Shown here: positions 2,859 to 32,505 of the stretch, in pieces
Position numbering within the stretch: the stretch's first letter is position 1
Layout of the letters: each line of letters begins with the position of its first letter
Source: a virus
Direction: 5' to 3' (one strand)
Length of the DNA: 32,505 bases
IMG/VR virus record: IMGVR_UViG_3300049855_000351
Span: 1-32,505 of that record
The notes under the pieces: model-generated
Databases searched by the model: none
What the model saw: the letters and a program-made list of their open reading frames with translations, nothing else
What the model was told of the DNA's origin: nothing
Translations under genes and position numbers: made by a program

Positions 2859-4296
2859 AATACACCTCAAAAAGCCCCACAAAGGCCAAGAGCGAATCAT
2901 AAAAGAAGCACGGCGCTTCAATTGTATTCCATGCGCTCGAAGGTTCGGTAAAACGGAGCTAATGACTACGGTCAAAATGCCATTGATTGCCCCTGCTGTT
3001 TTTAGTGGGGGCTTTGTCGCTATATTTGCCCCTGTCTTCAAAGATATTTCCCAAACATGGTCTTTGATACTTGAAACCTATAAAGAGCTAATACATGGCA
3101 AAGACAATACTAAGCACATTATAGAGTTCCACGGCGGCGGAAAGCTGTTTTTTTGGTCACTCACTAATGAAGCTCACAAAAACGATGGCAGGGGCTACAA
3201 GTTCCACAGGGTTATTTATGAGGAAACACAAAAGATACCCGATGCCGTTTTTCAGCATCATTGGAAAGAGGTTTCAAGACCTGCGCTAACCGACTACAAA
3301 GGGGATGCTTATTTTATTGGAACTACAAACGGTAAAAACTCTTTTTGGTATCAGCTTTACCGACGCGGCGCAATGAATGGCAATTGCACAGTCAATGCCT
3401 TTGGAGAAGAAGATATTGAACCGCTTACCGAATTAGAAGCGGATAATAAAGATTGGATGACGTTTAGAATGATAACAACGGACAATCCCAACATTGACCC
3501 AAACGAGGTATTGAGCGCGGCTGGTGATTTGGATGAACAAAGTTATCATCAAGAGTATTTCTCTGTTGTGGTGAACTACGAGGGGCAGGCATGGGCATAC
3601 GTCCTAAAGGATAGAGCCTTACAAAACAAAGTCTTTCAAAAGGCCTCAAAAGTCAATTTTGCGGATGATATTTACATAGCTTTTGACTTTAACAAAGTGC
3701 CTATGACGGCCCTCGTGATGCAAAAGAAGTATCTATCCCCTGTCGAAGTTGAACAAACCAAATTCAAATATGCCCCACTAATAAAAAAAGAGTTCAAAGT
3801 CGGCACCGTTCACAAACCTGCTTCAATATTTGACACCTGCAAAGCCATTAGGGAATGGATATATCAAGAAACAGGGCGCAAAATTGGAAAGTGGGAAGAG
3901 GGTAATAATATTGTCAATCGATACCCTAATGTTTACCCTATCAAGGTCACGGGGGACGCTTCAGGGAATGTTACATCTGGAATGGTCAAAGACCCAACGA
4001 CCTTTTATAAAATCATTATGGATGAACTGCAATTATTAGCTCAAGACTTTACAATTCCAAAATCAAACCCTTTCCACGCGGACAGCCACTTGCAACTAAA
4101 CACAATATATAGCCGTTGCCCTCATGTAACTGTTGATAGTGAGAATTGCCCCGAGCTGAAAAAAGACCTTCTAAGGATAAAAGACGATGGGCGGCACGGC
4201 ATAGCTAAATCAGCGGGTGAAGCAACGCAGGCAGATTTATTAGACTGCAATCGCTATCTTTTTAATACTTTTTGCAAGGATATAAGGACTAAATAA
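2842..4296 (+). CDS. terL: Terminase large subunit
   Basis: This is the ATPase and nuclease that pumps DNA into the prohead. In the 484-aa protein the Walker A-like motif is CARRFGKTEL (residues 31-40), Walker B is VIYEE (124-128), and FIGTTNG (158-164) matches the coupling motif. The C-terminal RNase H-like nuclease has acidic residues in FDFNKVP (Asp282), GDASG (Asp372) and LLDCNRY (Asp468). All core motifs are present and the length is usual, so it should be functional. It overlaps the small subunit. A bidirectional hairpin terminator follows five bases after the stop and separates it from the convergent leftward operon. Confidence 0.95.
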   Translation: MTKKIRIHLKKPHKGQERIIKEARRFNCIPCARRFGKTELMTTVKMPLIAPAVFSGGFVAIFAPVFKDISQTWSLILETYKELIHGKDNTKHIIEFHGGGKLFFWSLTNEAHKNDGRGYKFHRVIYEETQKIPDAVFQHHWKEVSRPALTDYKGDAYFIGTTNGKNSFWYQLYRRGAMNGNCTVNAFGEEDIEPLTELEADNKDWMTFRMITTDNPNIDPNEVLSAAGDLDEQSYHQEYFSVVVNYEGQAWAYVLKDRALQNKVFQKASKVNFADDIYIAFDFNKVPMTALVMQKKYLSPVEVEQTKFKYAPLIKKEFKVGTVHKPASIFDTCKAIREWIYQETGRKIGKWEEGNNIVNRYPNVYPIKVTGDASGNVTSGMVKDPTTFYKIIMDELQLLAQDFTIPKSNPFHADSHLQLNTIYSRCPHVTVDSENCPELKKDLLRIKDDGRHGIAKSAGEATQADLLDCNRYLFNTFCKDIRTK

Positions 4297-4331
4297 AAAA
4301 GCCCCTCGATCATGAGGGGCTTTTGTTATTT
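4295..4331. terminator. Bidirectional terminator between terL and the leftward operon
   Basis: GCCCCTC (4301-4307) pairs with GAGGGGC (4314-4320) around a GATCAT loop. The stem is preceded by an A-run (4295-4300) and followed by TTTTGTTATTTTTT, so it can stop transcription in both directions. This fits its place between convergent genes. Confidence 0.85.
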
Positions 4332-4511
4332 TTTGATTAGTGCAAACCATATCCAACCTATCGGCCAAAAGAATGAAAATAATATTGTGACAACTGGGAA
4401 TAAAAAAGATGCTCTTTTGTGTGTTGGGTCAATCGTTGGGAGTACAGTATATCCAACATGGAACGCAGAAAAGCACATCATTGCAAAGTAAAAAATTGAT
4501 AGGTAAAGCAT
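4326..4511 (-). CDS. Small two-helix membrane protein
   Basis: The protein is 61 aa and mostly hydrophobic. A first segment covers about residues 3-26 (LSIFYFAMMCFSAFHVGYTVLP) and a second about 34-58 (ASFLFPVVTILFSFFWPIGWIWF), joined by a short polar loop (DPTHKRA) and ending in KK. It is the last gene of the leftward operon, 4 bases from the previous one, and ends at the bidirectional terminator. It is an inner-membrane protein; a holin-like or superinfection-exclusion role would fit the size, but neither is shown by sequence. Confidence 0.65.
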   Translation of the reverse strand: MLYLSIFYFAMMCFSAFHVGYTVLPTIDPTHKRASFLFPVVTILFSFFWPIGWIWFALIKK

Positions 4512-4515
4512 GGAA

Positions 4516-4998
4516 TTATAGTTTTAAAAATTTTGCAATTTGTTCAGGGGCAAAAGTGCCGTCGGGCTTATCATTCTTTAGCGCAATCGCATAAATTGCG
4601 CCGTTGTGGTGGTAGGCTTTGCATTTGGTTGCAAGTCCTTCGGTTGTTAGAACTGTGCAGATTTCATCATGCGCGGGTTGGTAGGGTTCAAATTGCATCG
4701 GAACGAGCTTTGCTGTATAAAGATAGCTACTAAGGTCATCGCGCCCTTCAAATGCTTTTTGTAAGTCGTTGTAAACATAATCGCTTACAAAAAAACCTTC
4801 ACCCATTGATTTATACACATTAACAAAAATAGGTTCACATTCAAACCCAATTTTATTTTTGAACTTTTCAATCAATCTATCCAATTCAGCTTGCCTATTT
4901 TCAAGGCTATCATGATATTTGTATAGCTCATTAGCATAAAGCTCAATATCTTTAAAGTCATTAGCTGACAAATCTCGTTTTTCTACTTTTTTAGTCAT
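4516..4998 (-). CDS. Accessory protein sharing a C-terminal module with the protein at 30433-30963
   Basis: The protein is 160 aa. Residues 1-50 are a charged, probably coiled-coil helix (KKVEKRDLSANDFKDIELYANEL... ENRQAELDRLIEKFKNKIG). From about residue 57 it resembles the leftward protein at 30433-30963: IFVNVYKS with LFVNVLKD, SDYVYNDLQKAFEG with NEIFQTSEAAYNFG, and YTAKLVP in both, and both end in an 'IAKFLKL/IKQFLPL' type tail. No known domain is recognised. The shared part is beta-rich. There is no signal or membrane segment. Function unknown; the presence of two related proteins in leftward blocks suggests a common accessory role. Confidence 0.75.
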   Translation of the reverse strand: MTKKVEKRDLSANDFKDIELYANELYKYHDSLENRQAELDRLIEKFKNKIGFECEPIFVNVYKSMGEGFFVSDYVYNDLQKAFEGRDDLSSYLYTAKLVPMQFEPYQPAHDEICTVLTTEGLATKCKAYHHNGAIYAIALKNDKPDGTFAPEQIAKFLKL

Positions 4999-5002
4999 AA
5001 CC

Positions 5003-5161
5003 TTATTTTTTAGAGTTTTTTAATGATATGTCAGCTTCTTTGCCCGTTCCAATATTCCAAGCTGTCGAACCGTTCCAATTCCAAGAGCGGCTATTTGCCC
5101 ACCATTCAGAGCCTGTTATGTGTGTTCGCCAGTTTTTAACGGCGGCTGTTGATTGTTGCAT
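5003..5161 (-). CDS. Tryptophan-rich small protein
   Basis: A 52-aa reading frame fills the gap between two leftward genes. It starts at the ATG complementary to 5159-5161, overlapping the end of the upstream gene (stop at 5136) by 26 bases in another frame, and stops at 5003, 4 bases before the next ATG. Six of its 52 residues are tryptophan, concentrated in ITGSEWWANSRSWNWNGS, and it ends in a basic tail (SLKNSKK). Tight packing within the operon supports it being real. No family is recognised; the Trp/Asn/Ser repeats could form a small beta structure or a membrane-interface peptide. Confidence 0.6.
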   Translation of the reverse strand: MQQSTAAVKNWRTHITGSEWWANSRSWNWNGSTAWNIGTGKEADISLKNSKK

Positions 5162-5354
5162 TGCGTGTGTTTTTGATAGAGTCTTCTAATCGCTTTGTTT
5201 CAAGCATTATTTCAGCGTTTTTATAGCCTTGTTGGTAGCCTTTTTCATAGGTTCGGCTCGTTGCTCCTATTCTGTACCCTTCATCAAAGGCGGTAACGCA
5301 GGCAACAATAAGGGCTATAATTATAACTATTGAGCCTAATATTTTGTCTAACAT
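5136..5354 (-). CDS. Small single-pass membrane protein
   Basis: With the start at 5354 the protein is 72 aa: MLDKILG, then a strong membrane segment (SIVIIIALIVACVTAF), then a soluble charged tail with Tyr/Gly repeats (YEKGYQQGYKN) and a helix ending in NSRR. The frame is open further upstream to 5444, but that extension would overlap the next gene and is low-complexity. The 5354 ATG is preceded by AACACATCAAACA, the same leader that precedes the ATG at 5703, which decides the start. Topology is probably N-in with a cytoplasmic or periplasmic tail. Function unknown. Confidence 0.7.
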   Translation of the reverse strand: MLDKILGSIVIIIALIVACVTAFDEGYRIGATSRTYEKGYQQGYKNAEIMLETKRLEDSIKNTRNATINSRR

Positions 5355-5409
5355 TGTTTGATGTGTTTTTGATGTGTTCGCAGTTGAACGGATGCTGCAC
5401 CCCGTTTTT

Positions 5410-5703
5410 TTAATCCTCGAATTGGCTTTCGTAATGTGCACCATAATCGGAAGCAGCTTGTTCCCTCAAAGCGTAAACCGCTAAAGCTTCAATCTGTATT
5501 GCACTTTTTTGGATGCAAAGTTTTGAAAGCGCAGCGGCTGTTGTTTCCTCTAATCCGTCAATATCTTGCGTTTCTTCATCATCTGTAAAATAGTAGCAGA
5601 TGTTTTCTATTGTTTCGCCTTGTTCGACTTCGGCTGTTACAGCTACATAAAATTCGCCTTCTTTGCCCTCTAATAAGATTGTTGTTGTTGTTTCGCTTGC
5701 CAT
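5410..5703 (-). CDS. Hypothetical acidic protein
   Basis: The protein is 97 aa and strongly acidic (FTDDEETQDIDGLEE, YESQFED). The N-terminal half looks like beta strands (TTTTILLEGKEGEFYVAVTAEV) and the C-terminal half is helical (TTAAALSKLCIQKSAIQIEALAVYALREQAASDYG). No family is recognised and there is no membrane segment. The ATG is preceded by the repeated leader AACACATCAAACA. It is the second gene of the leftward operon. Small acidic phage proteins can be inhibitors of host enzymes or DNA mimics, but nothing here shows that. Confidence 0.65.
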   Translation of the reverse strand: MASETTTTILLEGKEGEFYVAVTAEVEQGETIENICYYFTDDEETQDIDGLEETTAAALSKLCIQKSAIQIEALAVYALREQAASDYGAHYESQFED

Positions 5704-5718
5704 TGTTTGATGTGTTGC

Positions 5719-5736
5719 GCAGCCTTACGGGGCTGC
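5719..5736 (-). other. Intercistronic hairpin in the leftward operon
   Basis: GCAGCC (5719-5724) and GGCTGC (5731-5736) form a perfect 6-bp stem with a 6-base loop, in the gap between the genes starting at 5966 and 5703. No T-run follows in the leftward direction, so it is not a standard terminator. It may be an RNA-processing, stability or attenuation element. Confidence 0.5.
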
Positions 5737-5744
5737 TTGGTTTA

Positions 5745-5966
5745 TTATTTGTATTGTTTCAAAATATGTTTGTAGTAGTGTCTTTCAGTTAGCCATTCTC
5801 TCAAATATTCAACATTTCTAAGGTCTTTTGAGAATTTCAACTCTTTTTTGATAATCTCATTAACTTCTTTCAAACCTCTTTCAATTTGTAGTTTGAATTT
5901 GTAAATGTTGCCAAATTTTGCAAATGCTGCGTTAGCCTGTTCGATTTTTTCAGCTTGATTTGTCAT
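5745..5966 (-). CDS. Hypothetical helical protein, first gene of the leftward operon
   Basis: This 73-aa basic protein is predicted by eye to be fully helical: a first helix with AEKIEQANAAFAKFGNIYKF, then LQIERGLKEVNEIIKKELKF, and a C-terminal region rich in Arg/Tyr/Lys (REWLTERHYYKHILKQYK). No domain is recognised. It begins the six-gene leftward operon; its promoter at 6008-6038 and the 19-bp repeat at 5999-6017 lie just upstream. Its leader GCACATCAAA resembles those of the next two genes. A small basic helical protein in the first position could be a regulator, but that is only a guess. Confidence 0.6.
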   Translation of the reverse strand: MTNQAEKIEQANAAFAKFGNIYKFKLQIERGLKEVNEIIKKELKFSKDLRNVEYLREWLTERHYYKHILKQYK

Positions 5967-5998
5967 AAGATTGTCGTTTTTGATGTGCTTTAATTTTT

Positions 5999-6017
5999 AT
6001 TACATTACAAAGGTAAG
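5999..6017. repeat. 19-bp divergent-junction element, copy 1
   Basis: ATTACATTACAAAGGTAAG matches 16 of 19 positions of the element at 9871-9889 and 12852-12870. In this copy it overlaps the -7 box of the leftward promoter (6008-6015), so a protein bound here would be expected to block RNA polymerase. The differing bases are those that create the TACCTTTG box. Confidence 0.7.
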
Positions 6018-6038
6018 GCGAATATTTTAAACTTGCAA
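6008..6038 (-). promoter_or_regulatory. Leftward promoter (Bacteroidota type)
   Basis: On the minus strand TACCTTTG (6015-6008) matches the TAnnTTTG -7 consensus, and TTG (6038-6036) lies 20 bases upstream. It would drive the six genes from 5966 to 4326. The 19-bp element overlaps the -7 box. Confidence 0.7.
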
Positions 6039-6051
6039 GCTTTTTGTAATA

Positions 6052-6077
6052 TATTTTTAACAAAATGTAAAAAATAT
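6052..6077. repeat. AT-rich shared motif, copy 1
   Basis: TATTTTTAACAAAATGTAAA and the AT bases after it match, with few changes, motifs at 9901-9924 and 12882-12907. Here 34 bases separate it from the 19-bp element; in the other two copies the gap is 11 bases. Confidence 0.6.
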
Positions 6078-6081
6078 TTAA

Positions 6082-6114
6082 TTGCACCTTAAAATGTGAA
6101 AAGTGTTATATTTG
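6082..6114 (+). promoter_or_regulatory. Rightward promoter for the tail chaperone and tape measure genes
   Basis: TATATTTG at 6107-6114 is a full match to TAnnTTTG, with TTG at 6082-6084, 22 bases upstream. The ATG at 6131 follows 16 bases after the -7 box, so the leader would be short. It is divergent from the leftward promoter. Confidence 0.7.
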
Positions 6115-6130
6115 TATAAAATCAGGAAAT

Positions 6131-6730
6131 ATGTTAAAAAGAATTTTAAAATGGTTTGCATGGGATGCCAAAACGCGGCTATCAAACCGAAACCACACAA
6201 GATATATCAATTGGCTTTCAGCTTATGCCCCTGACTATGCGAGCGGGCATATCGAGTTAAAGCGCGTAAAAACAACAGTCGAAGGCATTAACTTTTATTT
6301 GCCTACTGACTTGCTAATGATAACAGGGCAAAGGAAAACGCGCATGGACGAGCTTTCTATTGGCTTAGGGTATGGAATGACAAGGGAGGAGCTTTTAAAC
6401 CTTTTGGAGGAAAGCTTAAAAACCATTGAAGATATGCCCTTTGATTTGAACCCTAAGAAAGTCCAAACCTTTTGCCAAAAGATGCAAGCTGACCTCAAAG
6501 ATTTTATTTGGCGGGTCAAAAACATAAATACAGAGCGCATAATTTTAGAAATAGCCCTTTGCCTTTTCTTTATCGAAGATGAAAACCCTTATCAGTTTAA
6601 TGAGCTTACGCAAAACAGAAAAAGAGATTTGGCGTTAAAAGATGACGATTTGCGGGCTTTTTTTTTGCAAACTACGCTCATCTTGTTGAGGCAATCGACA
6701 AACAACGAAAACGCCGTTACAAGCGCATAG
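6131..6730 (+). CDS. Tail assembly chaperone, short form (gpG-like, inferred)
   Basis: The 199-aa protein lies directly upstream of the tape measure gene, the fixed place of tail assembly chaperones in long-tailed phages. It is mostly helical, with a basic N-terminus (KRILKWFAWDAKTRLSNRNHTR) and two long helical regions. Near its end the mRNA has a run of nine T (6658-6666), and the -1 frame is open from there to 6966, so a longer fused product is expected, as for lambda gpG/gpGT. No sequence match to a known chaperone is claimed; the call rests on position and on the frameshift arrangement. Confidence 0.75.
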   Translation: MLKRILKWFAWDAKTRLSNRNHTRYINWLSAYAPDYASGHIELKRVKTTVEGINFYLPTDLLMITGQRKTRMDELSIGLGYGMTREELLNLLEESLKTIEDMPFDLNPKKVQTFCQKMQADLKDFIWRVKNINTERIILEIALCLFFIEDENPYQFNELTQNRKRDLALKDDDLRAFFLQTTLILLRQSTNNENAVTSA

Positions 6731-6966
6731 ATAACAATAAAGGGCGACCAGCTAAGAAGTACAAAAAAGAACGGTTTTATCAAAGGGCATTTGAAAAGGT
6801 GCGGTCTGTTGCAAATGATAATGAATACCTAATAGCCAAGGGCAACCCCGAAGTAGCAGCAAAGATAAAACATTGGCGTTTGATAGAATACTACGCAGCT
6901 TTAGAGCAATGCCTAAAAGAAGGCGATAGAATGGAAGCCCAACGGGAGGGCAAAAAAAGAAAATAA
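6131..6966 (+). CDS. Tail assembly chaperone, frameshifted long form (gpGT-like)
   Basis: This product is made by a -1 shift at the T-run 6658-6666. After the slip the reading continues as NYAHLVEAIDKQRKRRYKRI and on to EAQREGKKRK, stopping at 6964-6966, 9 bases before the tape measure ATG. Total length is about 278 aa, of which about 100 are added by the shifted frame. The extension is highly basic and helical, fills an otherwise gene-free stretch, and has no plausible start of its own. In known phages the T-domain of gpGT binds the tail tube protein while the G-domain coats the tape measure; the same division is inferred. Confidence 0.75.
6658..6667 (+). other. Programmed -1 ribosomal frameshift site (T9G)
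   Basis: In the zero frame the site reads GCT TTT TTT TTG. T TTT TTT is a perfect X XXY YYZ heptamer, so both tRNAs can re-pair after a one-base backward slip. The short form continues for 21 more codons before its stop (6728-6730). Transcriptional slippage on nine T is an alternative mechanism with the same outcome. Weak stem candidates downstream (for example CTCA/TGAG around 6677-6690) were seen but are not convincing. Confidence 0.7.
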
Positions 6967-6975
6967 CCTCCAGCA

Positions 6976-9555
6976 ATGGCCGAAATAATCAAAGATACAT
7001 ATAGTTTAGAGTTCGATTCCCAAAGTTTTGAATCCCAAATATCCGAAGCTATCGCAAAAGTTGAAGAGTTGCAAGGCGCAATGGAAGACACCGCAGGCAG
7101 CACCGAGGAGTTAGACGGGGCTTTAGCATCCTTAGAAGACATCCTGAAAAAAGATGCCAAGGGTGTTGATGAGCTGAACTCTAAACAAAAGGTTTTGGCC
7201 ACTACTCAAAAAAACGTAAATAAAGAGAGTGCTGCTTATGGTCCTATCGCCAAAGAAAACGCCAAAAACCAAAAGCAGCTTGCAACTGCCACAGCCGATG
7301 CAACTAAAAATCAAAAGTCTTTGGGCGGTTCTGTTTTGGACGGAGCGCGCAAACTCAATTCCCTAAAACGTGCCGCAGGGCTTGTTGGTGGGGCTTTCCG
7401 CTTATTGGGTTCATTTAATCCTGTTGGCTTAGTAATTACAGGCGTTACACTTTTACTGCCACTAATGGCAAGTCTTTTCACAGCATCCAATAAAGCCAAA
7501 ACAGGATTGGAAAAGTTGAACGACCCTAACTTGTCGCTCAATGAAAGACAGCAGATTTTACAAGATGAAATCAACAAGCTAAACGAATTGGAAAGCAAAC
7601 GCGGCTCACTCACCGAAGAGGAAAAGAAGCAGCGCGACGACCTAACGGCCAAATACAAAGAAACATCTGCCGAAATCCTAAGAATAGAATCTGAAAGGAC
7701 GCAAAGAATAACGGAGCTTCAAAGGGAAGCTGCGCGCATCCGAATAAAGCTTTTGGGGGATACCACAGCCGCCGTAATTGCTAATGCTCAATTGGAGTTT
7801 GATATTTTGAGAGATGAAAACGGAAAGTTTGCAACTGATATTATTGCAGAACAAAACAAGCTTGCAAAACAAAGGGCTGCTTTGCTATCTGAAGCCGCTG
7901 CCTTAGAAAGCCAAAACCTATTCCAAGAAGCCGAAGCAAAAAGAAAGCTTGCTGATGATATACAATCAGCCATAGACAATACTGAAAAAGAAATTACAGC
8001 CAATAGGGAATTAACTAACGAAAAGGAGCGACAAATTGAGGTTGAACGAAATAAAGAGCTTCAAAGAATAGCCAATGCCGATAAAGAAAAAAAGGATGCC
8101 GAAGCAAAAAGAAAGCTCGAAGAAAACGCAAGGGAATTAGTCGAAGCCGACATAAAGCAAGCCGAAGATGATGCAGCTTTCCGCGCAAGGCTTGCCGCTG
8201 ATTTGGCAGCCTATGAGGAGGAGCAAGCAAGGCAATTAGCTGAATACAAAAAAACCGTTTCTGTTGAGGGATTCCAAGAAGAGGTCAAAGCTATTATTGT
8301 AGCTCGCACCGAACTATCTGAACAAGAACAGAGATTTATTGAAGCCGAAAGCCAAAGGCGAATATTAGCACTTGAGCAGGAGCGCAATGGCGAACTATTA
8401 AAGGCAAGGCAAACGGCGCAAAGTCAGCAGGAACTAAATTCCGAACTTGAAAGAATTGATAAGGAATACAATAATAAACGCGCTGTACTCGATGCACAGG
8501 CAACTGTCGAAATTGCCAAAAATAGGATTAAGATTTTACAGGAAACAATTGATAGGTCAAGGGTTTTAGGTATTGATACTTCGGCAGCGGAAAAAGAAAT
8601 TGCAGATTTAGAGCTAAAAATTCAGGAACTCGAAAACGCGGCGCTTGTCAAAGTCGATGCCGACACCGAACCCGCAGAAAACAAGCTTAAAGAACTTGCA
8701 AAAGAGCTTTTGCCATTATTCCAAACGGTTTCAGATGAAATATTTGGATTATTAGCTCAACAGGCTTCATTCCTTACCGAAAGATTAGATAAAGCAGTCG
8801 AAAAAAGCAAATCGGCACTTGATGAAATCCGAAATAATAGCGAAGATTTTAATGCTCAACAATTAGCCGAAGAAAAACGACGCTTGCAAGATTTGGAGGC
8901 GGCACGAAGACAGGCGGCGCAAAGAGAAAGGATTATTGCACAGGTTCAAATCGCAGCTAATGCAGCAATTGCCATATCTAAAGCAGCAGCCGAGGGCGGA
9001 GTTGCTGCACCGTTTACAATCGCGGCAACCCTTATCAGTTTGATAGCAGGCTTTGCGGCGGCGCGTAATGCGGCATCGGGTGCATTCTTTCAGGGTACTG
9101 AATATCTTGAAAGGAACGGCGCACCAAAGGGCAAAGATACAATTCACATTCGAGCGCATGAAGGTGAGCGAATTGTTCCAACGGCTAATAATATGAAGTA
9201 TTGGGATGCCTATTCAGCTTTCCAAAATGAAAAGATACCCGCTGAAATTGCTAATCTATTTGCGAAGGGCTATTTGTCAGGCGGTTTGCCCGGTGCTGTT
9301 GGGGCTTTAGGTGCGCCAAAGCTCGAAGGGGTAAACCTACGTCAAAAATTAGGCTCAAATGTTGTTTACATTATGCGGGGCGCAACGATGGAAACGGCAA
9401 AGCTCGAAAAAGCTATCAATGAAGTATCGGAACAGCTTTCCGATTTGCCTAAGAAGATGCCTATATCAACTTTCAATGTAAATTCGCACGGGCTTTATAT
9501 TTCCACAAAGAAATACATCGGAAAACAGGAAATGAGAAAGGGAAGGGCGAAATAA
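6976..9555 (+). CDS. Tail tape measure protein
   Basis: The 859-aa protein sets tail length and is ejected ahead of the DNA. It has a coiled-coil start (about residues 15-115), a hydrophobic segment at 135-170 (GLVGGAFRLLG...LPLMASLFTA), a very long charged coiled coil rich in Glu/Ala/Lys/Arg from about 185 to 650, and a second hydrophobic Ala-rich region at 653-700 (ISLIAGFAAARNAASGAFFQ). A C-terminal domain follows, with the HEGERIVPTANN motif typical of tape measure proteins. At about 1.5 angstrom per residue it implies a tail near 130 nm. CCTCC shortly before the ATG (6967-6971) is not a classic ribosome-binding site. It follows the chaperone gene by 9 bases. Confidence 0.93.
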   Translation: MAEIIKDTYSLEFDSQSFESQISEAIAKVEELQGAMEDTAGSTEELDGALASLEDILKKDAKGVDELNSKQKVLATTQKNVNKESAAYGPIAKENAKNQKQLATATADATKNQKSLGGSVLDGARKLNSLKRAAGLVGGAFRLLGSFNPVGLVITGVTLLLPLMASLFTASNKAKTGLEKLNDPNLSLNERQQILQDEINKLNELESKRGSLTEEEKKQRDDLTAKYKETSAEILRIESERTQRITELQREAARIRIKLLGDTTAAVIANAQLEFDILRDENGKFATDIIAEQNKLAKQRAALLSEAAALESQNLFQEAEAKRKLADDIQSAIDNTEKEITANRELTNEKERQIEVERNKELQRIANADKEKKDAEAKRKLEENARELVEADIKQAEDDAAFRARLAADLAAYEEEQARQLAEYKKTVSVEGFQEEVKAIIVARTELSEQEQRFIEAESQRRILALEQERNGELLKARQTAQSQQELNSELERIDKEYNNKRAVLDAQATVEIAKNRIKILQETIDRSRVLGIDTSAAEKEIADLELKIQELENAALVKVDADTEPAENKLKELAKELLPLFQTVSDEIFGLLAQQASFLTERLDKAVEKSKSALDEIRNNSEDFNAQQLAEEKRRLQDLEAARRQAAQRERIIAQVQIAANAAIAISKAAAEGGVAAPFTIAATLISLIAGFAAARNAASGAFFQGTEYLERNGAPKGKDTIHIRAHEGERIVPTANNMKYWDAYSAFQNEKIPAEIANLFAKGYLSGGLPGAVGALGAPKLEGVNLRQKLGSNVVYIMRGATMETAKLEKAINEVSEQLSDLPKKMPISTFNVNSHGLYISTKKYIGKQEMRKGRAK

Positions 9556-9578
9556 AAAAGCCCCGCGAGTGGCAGGGC
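9556..9578 (-). terminator. Repeated terminator, copy 1
   Basis: A 23-base sequence, AAAAGCCCCGCGAGTGGCAG plus GGC, begins directly after the tape measure stop. It is identical to 12420-12442. GCCC and GGGC pair. In the leftward direction the stem is followed by TTTTTT, so it terminates the gene at 9588-9806 well; in the rightward direction no strong T-run follows. Confidence 0.75.
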
Positions 9579-9587
9579 GGTATGGGG

Positions 9588-9806
9588 TTATTTTGTTTCT
9601 ATTTTAATCTCTCTAAATTCCCCCGCGAAATGTTCTAAGCAGCTTATTTGAGTTTTTACAGGTATTTCACCGTGAGCGTAGCTGATAGAAAGAGAGCCGT
9701 TAGAATGCAGGTAATAATAGTAGTCTAAAGAATGGCGATTTGTAGCGTTTACGCTTTCCTCTGTGAATGGTTCGCCTTTTTTTACGTGTGCATATACAGT
9801 TGGCAT
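9588..9806 (-). CDS. Hypothetical small protein of leftward islet 2
   Basis: A 72-aa soluble protein that I do not recognise. It is beta-rich with a Tyr cluster (SLDYYYYLHSNGSLSISYAHGE) and ends in a strand pattern (GEFREIKIETK). It is a single leftward gene enclosed by the repeated terminator on its 3' side and the 19-bp element plus a -7 box on its 5' side. The isolated orientation within a rightward structural operon is typical of a moron, an accessory gene with its own signals. Function unknown. Confidence 0.65.
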   Translation of the reverse strand: MPTVYAHVKKGEPFTEESVNATNRHSLDYYYYLHSNGSLSISYAHGEIPVKTQISCLEHFAGEFREIKIETK

Positions 9807-9856
9807 GATAGTAAGTTTTAAGATTGTGATTTTATTATTTCCCTGATTTGTTGTTA

Positions 9857-9864
9857 CAAAGATA
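9857..9864 (-). promoter_or_regulatory. Leftward -7 promoter box of islet 2
   Basis: The minus strand reads TATCTTTG, a TAnnTTTG match, upstream of the gene starting at 9806. No TTG lies at the usual -33 distance; that space is occupied by the 19-bp element (9871-9889), 6 bases upstream of the box. Confidence 0.6.
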
Positions 9865-9870
9865 GGTAAT

Positions 9871-9889
9871 ATTACATTACGTAGGTAAT
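9871..9889. repeat. 19-bp divergent-junction element, copy 2
   Basis: ATTACATTACGTAGGTAAT is identical to 12852-12870. It is an imperfect palindrome: ATTAC and GTAAT at the ends, TACGTA near the centre. AGGTAAT also occurs just before it (9864-9870), giving a local direct repeat. It looks like a protein-binding site. Confidence 0.75.
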
Positions 9890-9900
9890 TAAAACCAATT

Positions 9901-9924
9901 TATTTTTAACAAAAAGTAAAATAT
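9901..9924. repeat. AT-rich shared motif, copy 2
   Basis: TATTTTTAACAAAAAGTAAA followed by ATAT, 11 bases from the 19-bp element and ending 7 bases before the ATG at 9932. The same motif at the same spacing occurs at 12882. Confidence 0.65.
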
Positions 9925-9931
9925 TTTTCAA

Positions 9932-10303
9932 ATGAAGTTCAACGTAAACTCTAAACATATCATTATCATAGTAGCGGCGGCACTTTTAGCCCTTGCTTTA
10001 ATCTTTCCAAATCGAAGCGCAAATACAAAAGACCTGCTAAAACTTCAAAGCGAATTGAAAGCCGATGCACTCGAAAGGGCAAAAGCCCAAGAGGAAAGCT
10101 TCAAAAAGTCGCTGCAAGAAATTAGGGGCGAACTTTTACGCCTGGAGGATTCTATTGCAGTAGTCGAAATAAAGTACCGAAAATCTGCCGAAAATATGAA
10201 CATTCAAATCAACAAACTAAACCTACTCAAAAATGAAAAACCTATTAACTACACTAATTATAGCGATACTGCTTTGCTCAATCGGTTACGGTCAAACAAT
10301 TGA
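9932..10303 (+). CDS. Membrane-anchored coiled-coil protein (i-spanin-like candidate)
   Basis: The 123-aa protein has a short basic start (MKFNVNSK), one membrane segment at residues 10-27 (IIIIVAAALLALALIFP) and then a long charged coiled coil (about 33-100). This is the architecture of inner-membrane spanins such as Rz. The gene overlaps the next by 71 bases in another frame, as Rz and Rz1 do. However, it lies among tail genes far from the amidase, so it may instead be a virion or tail-associated membrane protein. An A-rich leader precedes the start. Confidence 0.7.
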   Translation: MKFNVNSKHIIIIVAAALLALALIFPNRSANTKDLLKLQSELKADALERAKAQEESFKKSLQEIRGELLRLEDSIAVVEIKYRKSAENMNIQINKLNLLKNEKPINYTNYSDTALLNRLRSNN

Positions 10304-10691
10304 GCCAGCAGGTAATGGAATGTTTTTAATAGACCGCGCCTTTGCTGAACAATCGGCGGCACGTTTCGACAGCCTAACAAGCTGCAAGGCGCTTTGCTAT
10401 CAATACAATGAAGCTTTGGAAGCCTGCAAGGAAACGGAAGCCAACGCAGGGCAAACAATAGCCATGCAAGGGCAAAGCATCATGATTCTAAAGCAAGAAA
10501 AAGAATTGATGCAAGGAATTATAAATACTAAGGGTTCAATTATTGATATTCTCGAAAAAAACAACGAAATTACAAAGGAAATACTTTGGAGGGCTAACAA
10601 GAAACTGAAAAGACAAAAGTTTTGGGGTAGCTTTTCGGGTGTTTTGGGCGGGCTTGCGGCTGGGGTTTTGATTGGTGTTTTAATAAAATAA
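10233..10691 (+). CDS. Exported coiled-coil protein with C-terminal membrane segment (spanin-like candidate)
   Basis: At 152 aa it has an N-terminal signal (MKNLLTTLIIAILLCSIGYG), a periplasmic-type region with Cys residues (LTSCKALCYQYNEALEACKE), a coiled coil (about 75-120) and a C-terminal membrane segment (GSFSGVLGGLAAGVLIGVLIK). An exported N-terminus plus a C-terminal anchor resembles unimolecular spanins, but the Cys in the signal (LLCS) is a poor lipobox, so outer-membrane anchoring is uncertain. The start lies inside the previous gene. It is followed directly by the large tail gene. Confidence 0.7.
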   Translation: MKNLLTTLIIAILLCSIGYGQTIEPAGNGMFLIDRAFAEQSAARFDSLTSCKALCYQYNEALEACKETEANAGQTIAMQGQSIMILKQEKELMQGIINTKGSIIDILEKNNEITKEILWRANKKLKRQKFWGSFSGVLGGLAAGVLIGVLIK

Positions 10692-10695
10692 AGTG

Positions 10696-12411
10696 ATGCA
10701 AAACATAAGACTTTTATTTGACGGAATAGAGCAAGACTTGGACAATGTACAAGGGACAAACGGCGCATCTTTCACGTACAGAAGCAAAGATGAAAACGGT
10801 GAAAACGGATTTGCTTTTTCGCCTGACCTTATTTTGACTGGTGCCGCTTATGATTATGTAAAGGCTCAAATTATATCGCAGCCTTTGCCCGCTTTGGCGC
10901 AAATAAAAGTTTTGGTTTATAGTGATTGTTGTTCAGATGCTTTGGGTAATCCCTTACTACTTTTCACGGGCAAAATTGATGGGGCAGATGTTGAATGGTG
11001 CGAATACCCATGCAGCGAATGCACAGTATCAATAATTGATGATAGCCAAGATGCACAGGCGATACAATGCCTAAAGAATGCGATTATTTGGCAGCGCAAA
11101 AACCCAACGGGCGGCGGTGCAAATCAAGGCGACAATACCGAAAGACCTGCAATATATTTGAGCTACTGCAATGATGTTAGACCCGCATTTTTACAGGAAG
11201 TCTTTATGATTTTCGGGTTTATTATCCTTGTGGCAATTATGCCGTTCCTGTATCTTTGGGCAACAATTGCAAGCGCAATAGCTGGATTGATAGCGGCTGT
11301 TAGCAATGTTCCCGTTGGTGCAAATTTCTATGATGAGGCGGCTAATGTCGTTGAAATTCTTACCTCAATAATAACAGGCTGTGGCTATAAACATAGAACG
11401 CCTTTCGTTTCTTCAATATTGGCTAATGCCTGCGACATTTGCGGCCTATCGCTTCAAAGCTCTTTGTTCGGCATGGGTGGGCCATATAGAAACACCGTTC
11501 GACTTGACGCGGCTTTTGTTGCTGGCAAAAGAGATACAAACGCGGCTGATTTATCTTGGGGGCGCAATAGGCCAAACCTTAACTTTGTCCAATTCTTAGA
11601 CGATTTCAAACAGTTCAACATGGACTGGCGTGTTTCAAATGGCGTGTTGATTCTCGAAAGAAAAGACTACGATTTTGGCGGTCAATGGTTCGACCTTGCC
11701 GACATTCCCAACGATGACATTTTAAGCCTTTGTTTTTCCGTTACCGACATTAAACCTGCGGCATACGGTGAATATGAATACACAAAGGACGGAGTTGATA
11801 ATACAGGCGATGAAGCCCGCGACACTTGGACGGACTTAGTATTTGATTGGAACACGCCGCCAAACCCTGCACAGTCGGGATTGTTGCGCCGTTCATTCTT
11901 TTACGGTACGGCTTTGTTTAGAATGGATGCTGCAAGAAGTGAAACAAGCCCCTTGGATAAGCCTTTGTTTGCGGCTATCTTTTCAATCCTGAATGATACC
12001 GAAAATGTGATGCTCATGGAAAAGGGCATTTGTGGCTTTCCTAAGCTTTTGATTTGGGATGGAACAAGCGATGTTGAAAACGCGAAAGTTTTGCGCTATC
12101 CTTCAGCAGTTGAACCCGATACTTTTGACTACAATATTGATTGGTGGGTAAAAAAAGACTATGAGGATGGAACAGGAATACAAAGAGATACACTATATCA
12201 AAGACTTTTCTATATTGATGACCCAAGAGTTACAGGCGTAAAAATTAGGGGTTTTACATTAGAAATAAATGCTAACTGCGATATTTTAGCAACGCTTTCA
12301 CCTGACAAAAATATAGTGATTCCCGTTTCAGGTGTGAATAAAACCGCAAGTATTTCAGAGATTCAATACAATGTCAATACAAACAAGCTTACAATAACGG
12401 GGTTGGTTTAG
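10696..12411 (+). CDS. Large tail-tip/baseplate protein
   Basis: With ATG 10696 as start (a GTG at 10693 is in frame directly before) the protein is 571 aa. Following the tape measure gene, it is in the place of distal-tail or tail-hub proteins, and the mix of beta-rich regions (residues 1-125 and 380-571) with a central part fits. Unusually it has a hydrophobic stretch at about 171-205 (VFMIFGFIILVAIMPFLYLW...AIAGLIAAV), enough for one or two membrane helices. It is rich in Cys (DCCSD, WCEYPCSEC, NACDICG). No enzymatic motif is seen. The hub role is inferred from position. The repeated terminator follows 8 bases after the stop. Confidence 0.75.
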   Translation: MQNIRLLFDGIEQDLDNVQGTNGASFTYRSKDENGENGFAFSPDLILTGAAYDYVKAQIISQPLPALAQIKVLVYSDCCSDALGNPLLLFTGKIDGADVEWCEYPCSECTVSIIDDSQDAQAIQCLKNAIIWQRKNPTGGGANQGDNTERPAIYLSYCNDVRPAFLQEVFMIFGFIILVAIMPFLYLWATIASAIAGLIAAVSNVPVGANFYDEAANVVEILTSIITGCGYKHRTPFVSSILANACDICGLSLQSSLFGMGGPYRNTVRLDAAFVAGKRDTNAADLSWGRNRPNLNFVQFLDDFKQFNMDWRVSNGVLILERKDYDFGGQWFDLADIPNDDILSLCFSVTDIKPAAYGEYEYTKDGVDNTGDEARDTWTDLVFDWNTPPNPAQSGLLRRSFFYGTALFRMDAARSETSPLDKPLFAAIFSILNDTENVMLMEKGICGFPKLLIWDGTSDVENAKVLRYPSAVEPDTFDYNIDWWVKKDYEDGTGIQRDTLYQRLFYIDDPRVTGVKIRGFTLEINANCDILATLSPDKNIVIPVSGVNKTASISEIQYNVNTNKLTITGLV

Positions 12412-12419
12412 GGGCATAG

Positions 12420-12447
12420 AAAAGCCCCGCGAGTGGCAGGGCTTTTT
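12420..12447. terminator. Repeated terminator, copy 2 (bidirectional)
   Basis: This carries the same 23-base sequence as 9556-9578. GCCC and GGGC pair, extended by AAA/TTT. TTTTT follows rightward and TTTT leftward, so it can end both the tail gene (stop at 12411) and the leftward gene (stop at 12460). Confidence 0.8.
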
Positions 12448-12459
12448 CGGGTTATTAAA

Positions 12460-12798
12460 TTATGCGTTTTTCCTGTTTTCTAAAGCCTTACGTTCAATTT
12501 CTTGATAGGTTTTAGTGTCCAATATTTGTTTAGCGGCGGCTCTAAACCACTTATCAAGGTTGCCAATTTTGCCGATTCTTAACAATATTGTTTGTTTAAA
12601 GAATTTACATCTTTTAATAAATGACCTGCAAGCGGCTGCCTTTTCAGTATTTTTATTTAAGATGTGAGCGGCTAAATGCTGCTCGGCTCTGATAGTGGCA
12701 TTAGCAATAACTTGCATTGAATCTTCCAAAAACTTATTATCAGTTGATGATTCAATGTCTGCAAGCTCAAATTTTCTGTCTTCAAGTTGAAGGAACAT
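12460..12798 (-). CDS. Hypothetical helical protein of leftward islet 3
   Basis: The protein is 112 aa, basic and helical, with no recognised domain. The N-terminus is acidic (QLEDRKFELADIESSTDN). The rest alternates helices with conserved-looking polar faces (AEQHLAAHILNKNTEKAAACRSFIKRCKFFKQTI; DKWFRAAAKQILDTKTYQEIERKALENRK). It has no membrane segment. Like the gene at 9588 it is a single leftward gene between the repeated terminator and the 19-bp element, so it is a moron candidate under the same control. Function unknown. Confidence 0.65.
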   Translation of the reverse strand: MFLQLEDRKFELADIESSTDNKFLEDSMQVIANATIRAEQHLAAHILNKNTEKAAACRSFIKRCKFFKQTILLRIGKIGNLDKWFRAAAKQILDTKTYQEIERKALENRKNA

Positions 12799-12837
12799 AA
12801 TTTTTTGTTTTTTAATGTGATTAAATTAAGAGTATTG

Positions 12838-12845
12838 CAAAAGTA
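12838..12845 (-). promoter_or_regulatory. Leftward -7 promoter box of islet 3
   Basis: The minus strand reads TACTTTTG, a TAnnTTTG match. As in islet 2, the 19-bp element lies exactly 6 bases upstream (12852-12870) in place of a -33 TTG. Confidence 0.6.
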
Positions 12846-12851
12846 TAAAAC

Positions 12852-12870
12852 ATTACATTACGTAGGTAAT
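12852..12870. repeat. 19-bp divergent-junction element, copy 3
   Basis: ATTACATTACGTAGGTAAT is identical to copy 2 (9871-9889) and has the same distances to the leftward -7 box (6 bases) and to the AT-rich motif (11 bases). Confidence 0.75.
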
Positions 12871-12881
12871 AAAAAGATAAA

Positions 12882-12907
12882 TATTTTTCACAAAAAGTAA
12901 AAAATAA
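12882..12907. repeat. AT-rich shared motif, copy 3
   Basis: TATTTTTCACAAAAAGTAAA and following AT bases, 11 bases from the 19-bp element and just before the ATG at 12912. No complete rightward TAnnTTTG box is present here; TATTTTTC is the nearest. Confidence 0.6.
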
Positions 12908-12911
12908 TAAA

Positions 12912-30432: not shown

Positions 30433-30963
30433 TTATAGGGGTAGGAATTGTTTAATATCTTTGGGTTCGTAATACCCATATCCAGGCGCTAAGGCATAGG
30501 TTTCATTTTCAATTATAGATACTATGCAATTGCGGATTTCGCCAAGCTTAGTTTCAACCCTGCACTTTTCCCCATGCTTAGGAACAAAAGGCTCTTTGAT
30601 TTCTACGGGTACAAGTTTAGCGGTGTATTTATAGCCTTCAACTGTTTTTCCGAAATTATAAGCGGCTTCGGATGTTTGGAAAATTTCATTGCCTACAAAA
30701 ACGACGTCTTCATCTTTGAGCACATTAACAAAAAGCCCATGCGCCTCTTTTGGTAGGTTGTCAGGGTAGCGGCCTATCTCAAAGTCATAGTTTGTGCAGC
30801 CTTCAAAGGTCCAAAAAACTGGGAATTGCCTATTTTTTTGCAAATCAAAAAGCATTACCATGTGGCAGTATTCTTCAGTATTATGTATTTGGTATTCTTG
30901 GTTAAATTTCTTTGAGTGAAACCAACTGCCAACGGGCAAAGCTTCAAATTCTTGTCTTGTCAT
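30433..30963 (-). CDS. Accessory protein sharing a C-terminal module with the protein at 4516-4998
   Basis: A 176-aa soluble protein. The N-terminus is different from its relative (RQEFEALPVGSWFHSKKFNQEYQIHNTEEY), with aromatic beta strands. From about residue 77 it aligns with the protein at 4516-4998: LFVNVLKD, NEIFQTSEAAYNFG, YKYTAKLVPVEI, and an 'IKQFLPL' end. The gene is third in the leftward block, 4 bases after the nuclease stop, and ends at the bidirectional terminator. Function unknown; the location next to recombination genes suggests an early accessory protein. Confidence 0.75.
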   Translation of the reverse strand: MTRQEFEALPVGSWFHSKKFNQEYQIHNTEEYCHMVMLFDLQKNRQFPVFWTFEGCTNYDFEIGRYPDNLPKEAHGLFVNVLKDEDVVFVGNEIFQTSEAAYNFGKTVEGYKYTAKLVPVEIKEPFVPKHGEKCRVETKLGEIRNCIVSIIENETYALAPGYGYYEPKDIKQFLPL

Positions 30964-30967
30964 TGTC

Positions 30968-31846
30968 CTATGATTTTAATTTTAACAAATTTATTTTCCA
31001 ATCATTGCCCATTTCAGCAACCTTTTCAAGACTTTCGTAGTATTGTTGGGCCATGCCCAAATAAGTTCTTATAAGCTCAAAATAGCCCTCCGAACAATCA
31101 ACTATGTGTATTCTACAACGGTCTTTTACATCGGGAAACTTACCCTCAAAATCGAACATCCTTTGCACGTCTTGTACAAACTTTGCAGGAATATCGCTAT
31201 CCCAACCGTTCCCCAAATCTGCCCACATTTTGCGAGCTTCTTTGAAGACAAGCTCTTCGGGTGGATTCATCAAAACGCGAACAATGGCACCGCCTTTTAT
31301 TTTATGCCCTGCTTCATTTAAAAGCATTGCGTATGCCCTTATTTGCCATTCATAGATACTTATGTCCTTTTCATCAAAAAGTTTCAAACCTGAAGGATTC
31401 CAAACATTTTTTTGGTCAAATACAAAGTCTTTCGTTTTCCAGTCATAGCCATTAGTAACAAGCCATTGATTACGCATTTCTTTTTTTACGGCCTTGGTTG
31501 CAAATTCATAGCCCAGCATCTTCCCTACTTGCTCAATACTTCTTTGTTCGCATTCATTGCCCTTTTGAATGTACTTGTTTGTAAAGGTAGTACGAAAGCC
31601 AAATCTATCATTCATGAACTCTTCTTCAATGAAGCTTTTTGCACCAGCGGACAAAGTAGGCTGTTTTGCGGTAGTTGCTTTTTCTTGAAGCTCTTTGAGC
31701 CTTTCGGCCTGCTTTGGCGTGTGTTTATCCTGCGCTTTTAGTTTCTCCAATTCTTTAGCCTGTGCATCGGTAATGGTTGGGGCGGTGGATAAGGCCGCCC
31801 CTGTCATTATTCTGCCAAAATTGGAACATCGAAATAACTTACTCAT
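30968..31846 (-). CDS. Lambda-exo/YqaJ-type recombination exonuclease
   Basis: This 292-aa protein is likely the 5'-3' exonuclease partner of RecT. It starts with RCSNFGRIMTG, like the YqaJ/RecE-type N-terminus. A Lys/Glu-rich helical insertion follows (about 28-62). Then come GNECEQRSIEQV (Glu100/Glu105), FVFDQKNVW (Asp144-x-Lys146, the D/ExK core of the PD-(D/E)XK fold) and YEWQIRAYAMLLN (165-177), the conserved 'Y..Q...Y' helix. All core parts are visible and the length is usual. Its ATG overlaps the stop of the RecT-type gene, so they are coupled. Confidence 0.85.
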   Translation of the reverse strand: MSKLFRCSNFGRIMTGAALSTAPTITDAQAKELEKLKAQDKHTPKQAERLKELQEKATTAKQPTLSAGAKSFIEEEFMNDRFGFRTTFTNKYIQKGNECEQRSIEQVGKMLGYEFATKAVKKEMRNQWLVTNGYDWKTKDFVFDQKNVWNPSGLKLFDEKDISIYEWQIRAYAMLLNEAGHKIKGGAIVRVLMNPPEELVFKEARKMWADLGNGWDSDIPAKFVQDVQRMFDFEGKFPDVKDRCRIHIVDCSEGYFELIRTYLGMAQQYYESLEKVAEMGNDWKINLLKLKS

Positions 31847-32505
31847 TATGGTTTTTGAAGTTCAGCTAATTGCGATTCTGTAAAGTGGTATCTTTCCTGT
31901 ACATCAGTTAAATCATATTGACCGTCCAATATGCCCTGTTTGATTTTTACAAGGTCATCGGCGGAAACTTTGAGCTTTGTTTCGACTAATTCAAAATCAT
32001 TATCTGGATATTGTAATTGCTCATCTTCGGAAATTGTTGATTGGTCAGCTTCGATAGCCTTTTGCATATCAATAGAAAGCGGCCCCCATTTTGACAAACC
32101 ATTTTTAATAATTGTTTTCAATCCCATTGCATCAAAATCAGTTTTCCAAGCCGAATTTGAGCTATTATGCGATTTTGAAAAGCGGGCCATGTGCTTTTGA
32201 ACTTTCTTTTTAGTCCAAAATATTGTTTTTTCAAAGCCGTTATTTAATTCAAATCGGAAAGCATAGCCGACAACCTCCTCTCCATCTTCAGGTTCAATTG
32301 AGAAATCGGCATCCAGCTCTTCAGTCAAATAATTAAAAGAATTAAACTGTGAAGCGTAAACCTCGGTAGCATTCATATTTTTATATTGATTGCTTCTTTG
32401 GGCTAATTGCACAAAGCCTTTCCAACCGATTTGGAATTGCGCCTCACCTTTATATGGAACAATCCAAGCATACCCCAATGATTTATTGATAGGTAGTTGC
32501 AAGGT
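31846..32505 (-). CDS. recT: RecT-family single-strand annealing protein (5' end outside the window)
   Basis: The visible part, 219 aa, begins LPINKSLGYAWIVPYKGEAQ and continues FQIGWKGFVQLAQRSNQYKN, a clear RecT signature; then NATEVYASQF and the central 'EVVGYAFRFELNNGF...IFWTKKKV' region, and WKTDFDAMGLKTIIKNGLSKWGP. The frame is open to the window edge, so about 60-70 N-terminal residues are missing. It anneals complementary DNA strands after exonuclease digestion. Its stop overlaps the nuclease ATG (TAATG). Confidence 0.9.
   Translation of the reverse strand, partial: TLQLPINKSLGYAWIVPYKGEAQFQIGWKGFVQLAQRSNQYKNMNATEVYASQFNSFNYLTEELDADFSIEPEDGEEVVGYAFRFELNNGFEKTIFWTKKKVQKHMARFSKSHNSSNSAWKTDFDAMGLKTIIKNGLSKWGPLSIDMQKAIEADQSTISEDEQLQYPDNDFELVETKLKVSADDLVKIKQGILDGQYDLTDVQERYHFTESQLAELQKP

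Follow-up and report, generated by a model that had tools for sequence, protein, structure and literature searches.

What are short groups of leftward genes doing inside a late operon that is otherwise read rightward? The question is raised by a 32,505-base stretch of DNA from a virus of Bacteroidota bacteria (the window below), which is the whole of IMG/VR record IMGVR_UViG_3300049855_000351, with no wider assembly behind it. A preliminary description had placed leftward genes at three sites among the rightward structural genes, and the open reading frame (ORF) listing confirmed these three islets at the positions claimed (Table 1). It had also proposed that a phage regulator acts on all three through a 19-bp element, making them a coordinated accessory regulon rather than unrelated morons. 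Morons are extra genes, each with its own promoter and terminator, that lie between the late genes of tailed phages. We consider it likely that the islets are swappable morons carrying an early-class promoter of the phage, which they share with its recT-exonuclease and helicase-methylase operons, and that the unrelated genes they carry probably become active together shortly after infection. Among cultured phages in the collections searched no close relative was found, all terminase matches being below 30% identity, and comparisons were therefore made with loci from viral sequence collections.

A promoter shared with the early operons

The AT-rich motif TATTTTTnACAAAAnGTAAA occurs at 6052, 9901, and 12882, each time with 18 of 18 positions matching, and nowhere else in the window, so that it is common to every divergent junction, as had been described. 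Alignment of the three junctions gave 18 identical columns out of 20, compared with a best of 15 in 60 shuffled triplets; AT-rich composition inflates weak matches, hence the use of shuffled controls. The distance from this motif to a leftward TAnnTTTG −7 box is exactly 36 bp at all three junctions of the window and at all three of the relative L001, a regularity missed by the preliminary description. This constancy indicates that the junctions represent one promoter type. Measured to the rightward start codon, the distance is variable (59, 11, and 10 bp), and the motif therefore goes with the leftward promoter.

Islet 1 has the features of a Bacteroidota housekeeping promoter, TAnnTTTG with TTG about 20 bp upstream, as do the early operons of the relative L022, while islets 2 and 3 have the −7 box alone. 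The architecture reported earlier for these sites was correct: the −33 TTG is absent at islets 2 and 3, where the 19-bp element lies 6 bases from the TAnnTTTG box and 11 from the AT-rich motif, and at islet 1 the element overlaps the −7 box and a TTG is found at 20 bp. In Flavobacterium psychrophilum TAnnTTTG has been placed at −12 to −5 (PMC9723704), and start-site positions given here follow that placement.

The window does not reach the promoter of its own early genes. That promoter was read instead in L022 (IMGVR_UViG_3300017777_006280), which matches the right end of the window at 82 to 84.5% identity and extends past its right edge. The recT-exonuclease and helicase-methylase operons of L022 are divergent, with two promoters between them that both have an TAATGTAAT-type start region, an CACATCAAAAA leader, and a TTG at 19 to 20 bp. 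The AT-rich motif sits between these promoters, 34 bp away on each side. Alignment of the islet-1 junction with the two early promoters gave 77% identity across 110 bp for one and 73% across 105 bp for the other; the best score was 77 bits, whereas none of 500 shuffles exceeded 37.4. Islet-1 proteins also have relatives among early genes. The 160-aa protein has a paralogue in the 176-aa early-strand protein encoded at 30433-30963 (E value of 9e−13), and the 97-aa protein shares 46% identity with the product of a gene beside recT in another relative, G001. Together, the early-operon promoter copies and these paralogues indicate that the islets are early-class genes, located on the early strand but inside the late operon.

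Thus, the proposal of a coordinated regulon stood in part. The islets have one promoter type and are probably coexpressed, which sets them apart from unrelated morons, but the regulon is not confined to them, since the L022 recT and helicase operons share the promoter and islet 1 contains paralogues of early genes. It is the early regulon of the phage and not an islet-only one.

The AT-rich motif could instead serve the rightward late genes, as a late promoter or in translation start, and not the islets. It is found 10 to 11 bp before the rightward start codons at junctions 2 and 3, and the whole sequence leading to the ATG is almost the same in the window and L001. However, it is the leftward distance that is held constant and the rightward one that varies, and in L022 the motif has an early promoter on either side and no late gene beside it, which makes this explanation very unlikely. 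It is extremely improbable that the islets are unrelated morons with ordinary host promoters that look alike through consensus and AT-rich composition. The −7 boxes do match the host consensus and the junctions are AT rich, but the similarity is far above that of shuffled sequences, the spacing is fixed in two phages, and promoter-context matches to the composite pattern in IMG/VR were restricted to L001 and L022.

Some observations weigh against an early-class promoter for all three islets. The missing −33 TTG at islets 2 and 3 means that these promoters may work differently from the early ones, and AT-rich upstream sequence is common at promoters in general. At junctions 2 and 3 the motif adjoins the rightward start codon, so part of its conservation may serve the late gene. 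The motif was also evaluated as a palindrome, and its dyad symmetry was not above that of shuffles in the window, only in G001. Finally, the early-promoter sequences come from a relative, and the window record stops inside recT.

A CACATCAAAA-like leader is found shortly 5′ of several leftward start codons (5986, 5713, 5364, and 12819 in the window; 2783 and 2931 in L022) and is rare on the rightward strand. No RNA families or tRNAs were detected in the window.

Cargo exchange between conserved ends

Late genes of the window and L001 are 85 to 90% identical, and their alignment breaks at the terminators (4329, 9578, and 12454) and near the promoters (5960, 9834, and 12835). L001 keeps the promoters and terminators, while the cargo is replaced or rearranged, fully so in islets 2 and 3, where L001 has unrelated ORFs of 113 and 152 aa, respectively. 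Three islet-1 genes are common to both phages. Among the relatives checked, islets 2 and 3 are present only in the window and L001. The insertion sites separate genes that are neighbors in relatives: the late genes of G001 abut where islets 2 and 3 would be, and at islet 1 the flanking genes are 15 to 19 bp apart in 11 relatives. Judged from −7 boxes and hairpins in the sequence, the islets also have their own promoters and terminators. A bidirectional hairpin and then a rightward promoter are found at islet 1, and a leftward-only hairpin at islet 2.

Between islets 2 and 3 the promoters are 84% identical over 57 bp, and the two islets are therefore paralogous rather than independent observations. 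Their terminators share 41 bp at 88%, and the near identity at both ends points to a duplicated cassette with different cargo.

The cargo itself resembles little that is known. Islet proteins had no match in PADLOC and only weak, sub-threshold matches in Pfam and PHROGs, among them one of the 73-aa islet-1 protein to p55_CTD/HEPN. The 112-aa islet-3 protein is mostly helical in its predicted structure (pLDDT of 90), and fold and family searches with it returned no match. The structure model of the 160-aa islet-1 protein was of low confidence.

Table 1. Positions of the islets, their promoter elements and terminators, and related features in other loci
Feature	Position	Strand	Remarks
Islet 1	4326..5966	−	Six leftward ORFs (61, 160, 52, 102, 97, and 73 aa), flanked by the terminase large subunit gene and the following late gene
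Islet 2	9588..9806	−	Single 72-aa ORF
Islet 3	12460..12798	−	Single 112-aa ORF
−7 box, islet 1	6008..6015	−	TACCTTTG; TTG at 6036-6038, spacer of 20
−7 box, islet 2	9857..9864	−	TATCTTTG; no −33 TTG
−7 box, islet 3	12838..12845	−	TACTTTTG; no −33 TTG
AT-rich motif, islet 1	6052..6071	−	36 bp upstream of −7 box (about −68 to −49)
AT-rich motif, islet 2	9901..9920	−	36 bp upstream of −7 box
AT-rich motif, islet 3	12882..12901	−	36 bp upstream of −7 box
19-bp element, islet 1	5999..6017	+	16/19; overlaps −7 box (about −14 to +5)
19-bp element, islet 2	9871..9889	+	Exact; in −33 region (about −37 to −19)
19-bp element, islet 3	12852..12870	+	Exact; in −33 region (about −37 to −19)
Terminator closing islet 1	4297..4324		Good in both directions
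Terminator closing islet 2	9560..9578	−	Good leftward only
Hairpin closing islet 3	12424..12442		GCCCCGCGAGTGGCAGGGC, identical to islet-2 hairpin; T rich on both sides by eye; not in terminator-scan output
Rightward −7 box	6107..6114	+	TATATTTG; TTG 22 bp upstream; could restart late transcription past islet 1
Early-strand genes	30433..32505	−	176-aa paralogue of islet-1 protein, exonuclease, recT (cut by window end)
Islets with sigma-70-like gene (examples)	L080:8315-9082, L161:2463-3230	−	Also G008, G010, G011, G013
Rightward promoters of sigma-less group	window 6107-6114; L001 4730		Also L004 islet-1 junction
G001 promoter family	G001:C1 1347-1469, 4313-4407, 28704-28826		L117, L118; before LRR, pentapeptide-repeat, and other accessory genes

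These features suggest how the islets may work. The RNA polymerase of the host, carrying the housekeeping sigma factor of Bacteroidota, would read each islet leftward from its TAnnTTTG −7 box, and the AT-rich element at about −49 to −68 may strengthen the promoter, either in the manner of an UP element or as an activator site. The transcript would stop at the hairpin that closes the islet, so that islet products would be made early, ahead of the surrounding rightward late operon. Recombination between the conserved terminator and promoter could swap the cargo, and the phage RecT and exonuclease would probably assist.

The islets resemble morons in being opposite-strand genes with their own promoter and terminator, absence from relatives, and variable cargo. 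What sets them apart is that their promoters are copies of one phage promoter type, which in a relative also drives the replication genes. The PeSL of T4-type phages are promoter-terminator motifs (Arbiol 2010 and Comeau 2014, cited in PMC4503421 and PMC3950731). As far as they are outlined in these citing papers, PeSL and the islets have in common that repeated promoters and stem-loops flank genes exchanged between relatives. In the islets, however, promoter and hairpin stand at opposite ends of the cargo instead of forming a composite motif in one intergenic space, the phage is not T4-like, and the promoter is of the host TAnnTTTG type. In cluster K mycobacteriophages, SAS and ESAS are found, with SAS located at the start codon (PMC3203893). 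Here, too, a repeated asymmetric sequence and a second element lie upstream of scattered genes, but in the islets it is the promoter that carries these elements, and the late operon surrounds the cargo. An early regulatory sequence is common to SIRV2 and other archaeal viruses and has been used to find antidefense genes (PMC11065993). As in SIRV2, nearly the same promoters precede small unrelated genes and are conserved more than the genes themselves; in contrast, the virus described here is a bacterial tailed phage, its promoter also covers recT and helicase, and any repressor or antidefense role is putative.

The 19-bp element and a possible regulator

A search of the whole window for the 19-bp element, allowing up to three mismatches, bore out the two identical copies and the 16/19 copy reported at the divergent junctions. 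All three are on the + strand, and no copies were scattered or inside genes; none of 100 dinucleotide-shuffled sequences contained a match at this tolerance. The element is the shifting part of the junction, lying 23 bp further upstream in islets 2 and 3 than in islet 1. At islet 1 and the early operons it spans about −14 to +5 and is largely −7 box and start region, and the 16/19 score of islet 1 was helped by promoter consensus because the element there contains the −7 box. The L022 early-operon copy is identical to that of islet 1 at 19 of 19 positions. Another candidate set, 32 viral contigs containing ATTACATTACnnAGGTAA, was rejected, since the AT-rich context was present in L022 only and the other occurrences look like chance.

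A dedicated regulator that binds the 19-bp element is possible. The element may be the operator of a phage repressor, with half-sites ATTAC-N4-GTAAT and a further GTAAT, that closes all these promoters later in infection; we hold this idea tentatively, as somewhat less probable than not. Each of the eight copies (three in the window, three in L001, and two in L022) overlaps core promoter sequence: at islet 1 and the early operons this is the −7 and start region, and at the other two islets it is the −33 region. In the copies at islets 2 and 3 the −7-like core no longer has an intact TTTG, with TACG in its place in the window and TTCG in L001, but TTAC and GTAAT are mostly kept. There is also a precedent in SIRV2, whose shared early promoters are likely repressed by Aca8 (PMC11065993). 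However, conservation at islet 1 is explicable by the −7 box and leader, and the L152 and L161 lineage has the same −7 box and leader without a full TTAC half-site. In that lineage, which includes L162, an antisense islet stands among late genes with the same −7 box, start region, and leader and with different upstream sequence. No regulator was found by Sigma70_r4 and HTH_3 searches of the window, G001, L001, or L022; the window record is incomplete, ending at 32505 within recT, so that the early region, a possible place for a regulator gene, falls outside it.

The element could also act as an activator box that replaces the −33 region at islets 2 and 3, making these middle genes and leaving islet 1 early. 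Middle promoters of phage T4 follow this logic, with a MotA box bound by a phage activator in place of the upstream promoter element. The −33 replacement at islets 2 and 3 is exact, the spacing from AT-rich motif to −7 box is unchanged at 36 bp, and just two substitutions separate the window from L001 at each of the two islets. On the other hand, the regulator searches gave no candidate protein, paralogy makes islets 2 and 3 essentially one case, and a −33 element may be dispensable at some Bacteroidota promoters. We regard an activator as unlikely. A combined scheme, in which one phage regulator represses islet 1, recT, and helicase from a site over the −7 and start region and activates islets 2 and 3 from the −33 position, is a little more doubtful still. 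If it were true, the position of one regulator site would sort the islets into early and middle classes.

Plain promoter conservation accounts for most of the element at islet 1, a repressor fits all eight copies, and an activator fits islets 2 and 3. Either kind of site would add to the early-class promoter, not replace it, and the confidence given to these alternatives overlaps with that given to the preferred reading.

The islet site beside terL in the wider family

Among relatives found through their terminase, many of them near-duplicate loci, an antisense islet 1 lies beside terL in 36 and is absent from the 11 with the short gap. Of these 36 islets, 27 code for a relative of a protein that has sigma-70 regions 2 and 4, a candidate late or middle transcription switch. 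The islets of the window, L001, and G001 are without a sigma factor gene, and it is solely in this sigma-less group that a host-type rightward promoter (TTG and TAnnTTTG) precedes the next late gene (3 of 36 loci). Upstream of terL, the window encodes a protein with a ParB-like nuclease domain (1949-2458).

G001 has a promoter set of its own, three near-identical copies containing the palindrome AAAGTATT-N5-AATACTTT, one of them at islet 1 and the others at two accessory operons of the opposite strand, close to recT. In G007, G008, and G011, the islet promoters likewise match a second promoter-like stretch of the same genome and strand.

For this group of Bacteroidota phages, the AT-rich element followed at 34 to 36 bp by TAnnTTTG provides a sequence rule for finding swappable early genes; in archaeal viruses a comparable rule yielded new antidefense genes. 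The islets also indicate that early genes can occupy the opposite strand inside a late operon, at a long-lived site beside terL that in relatives mostly bears a sigma factor.

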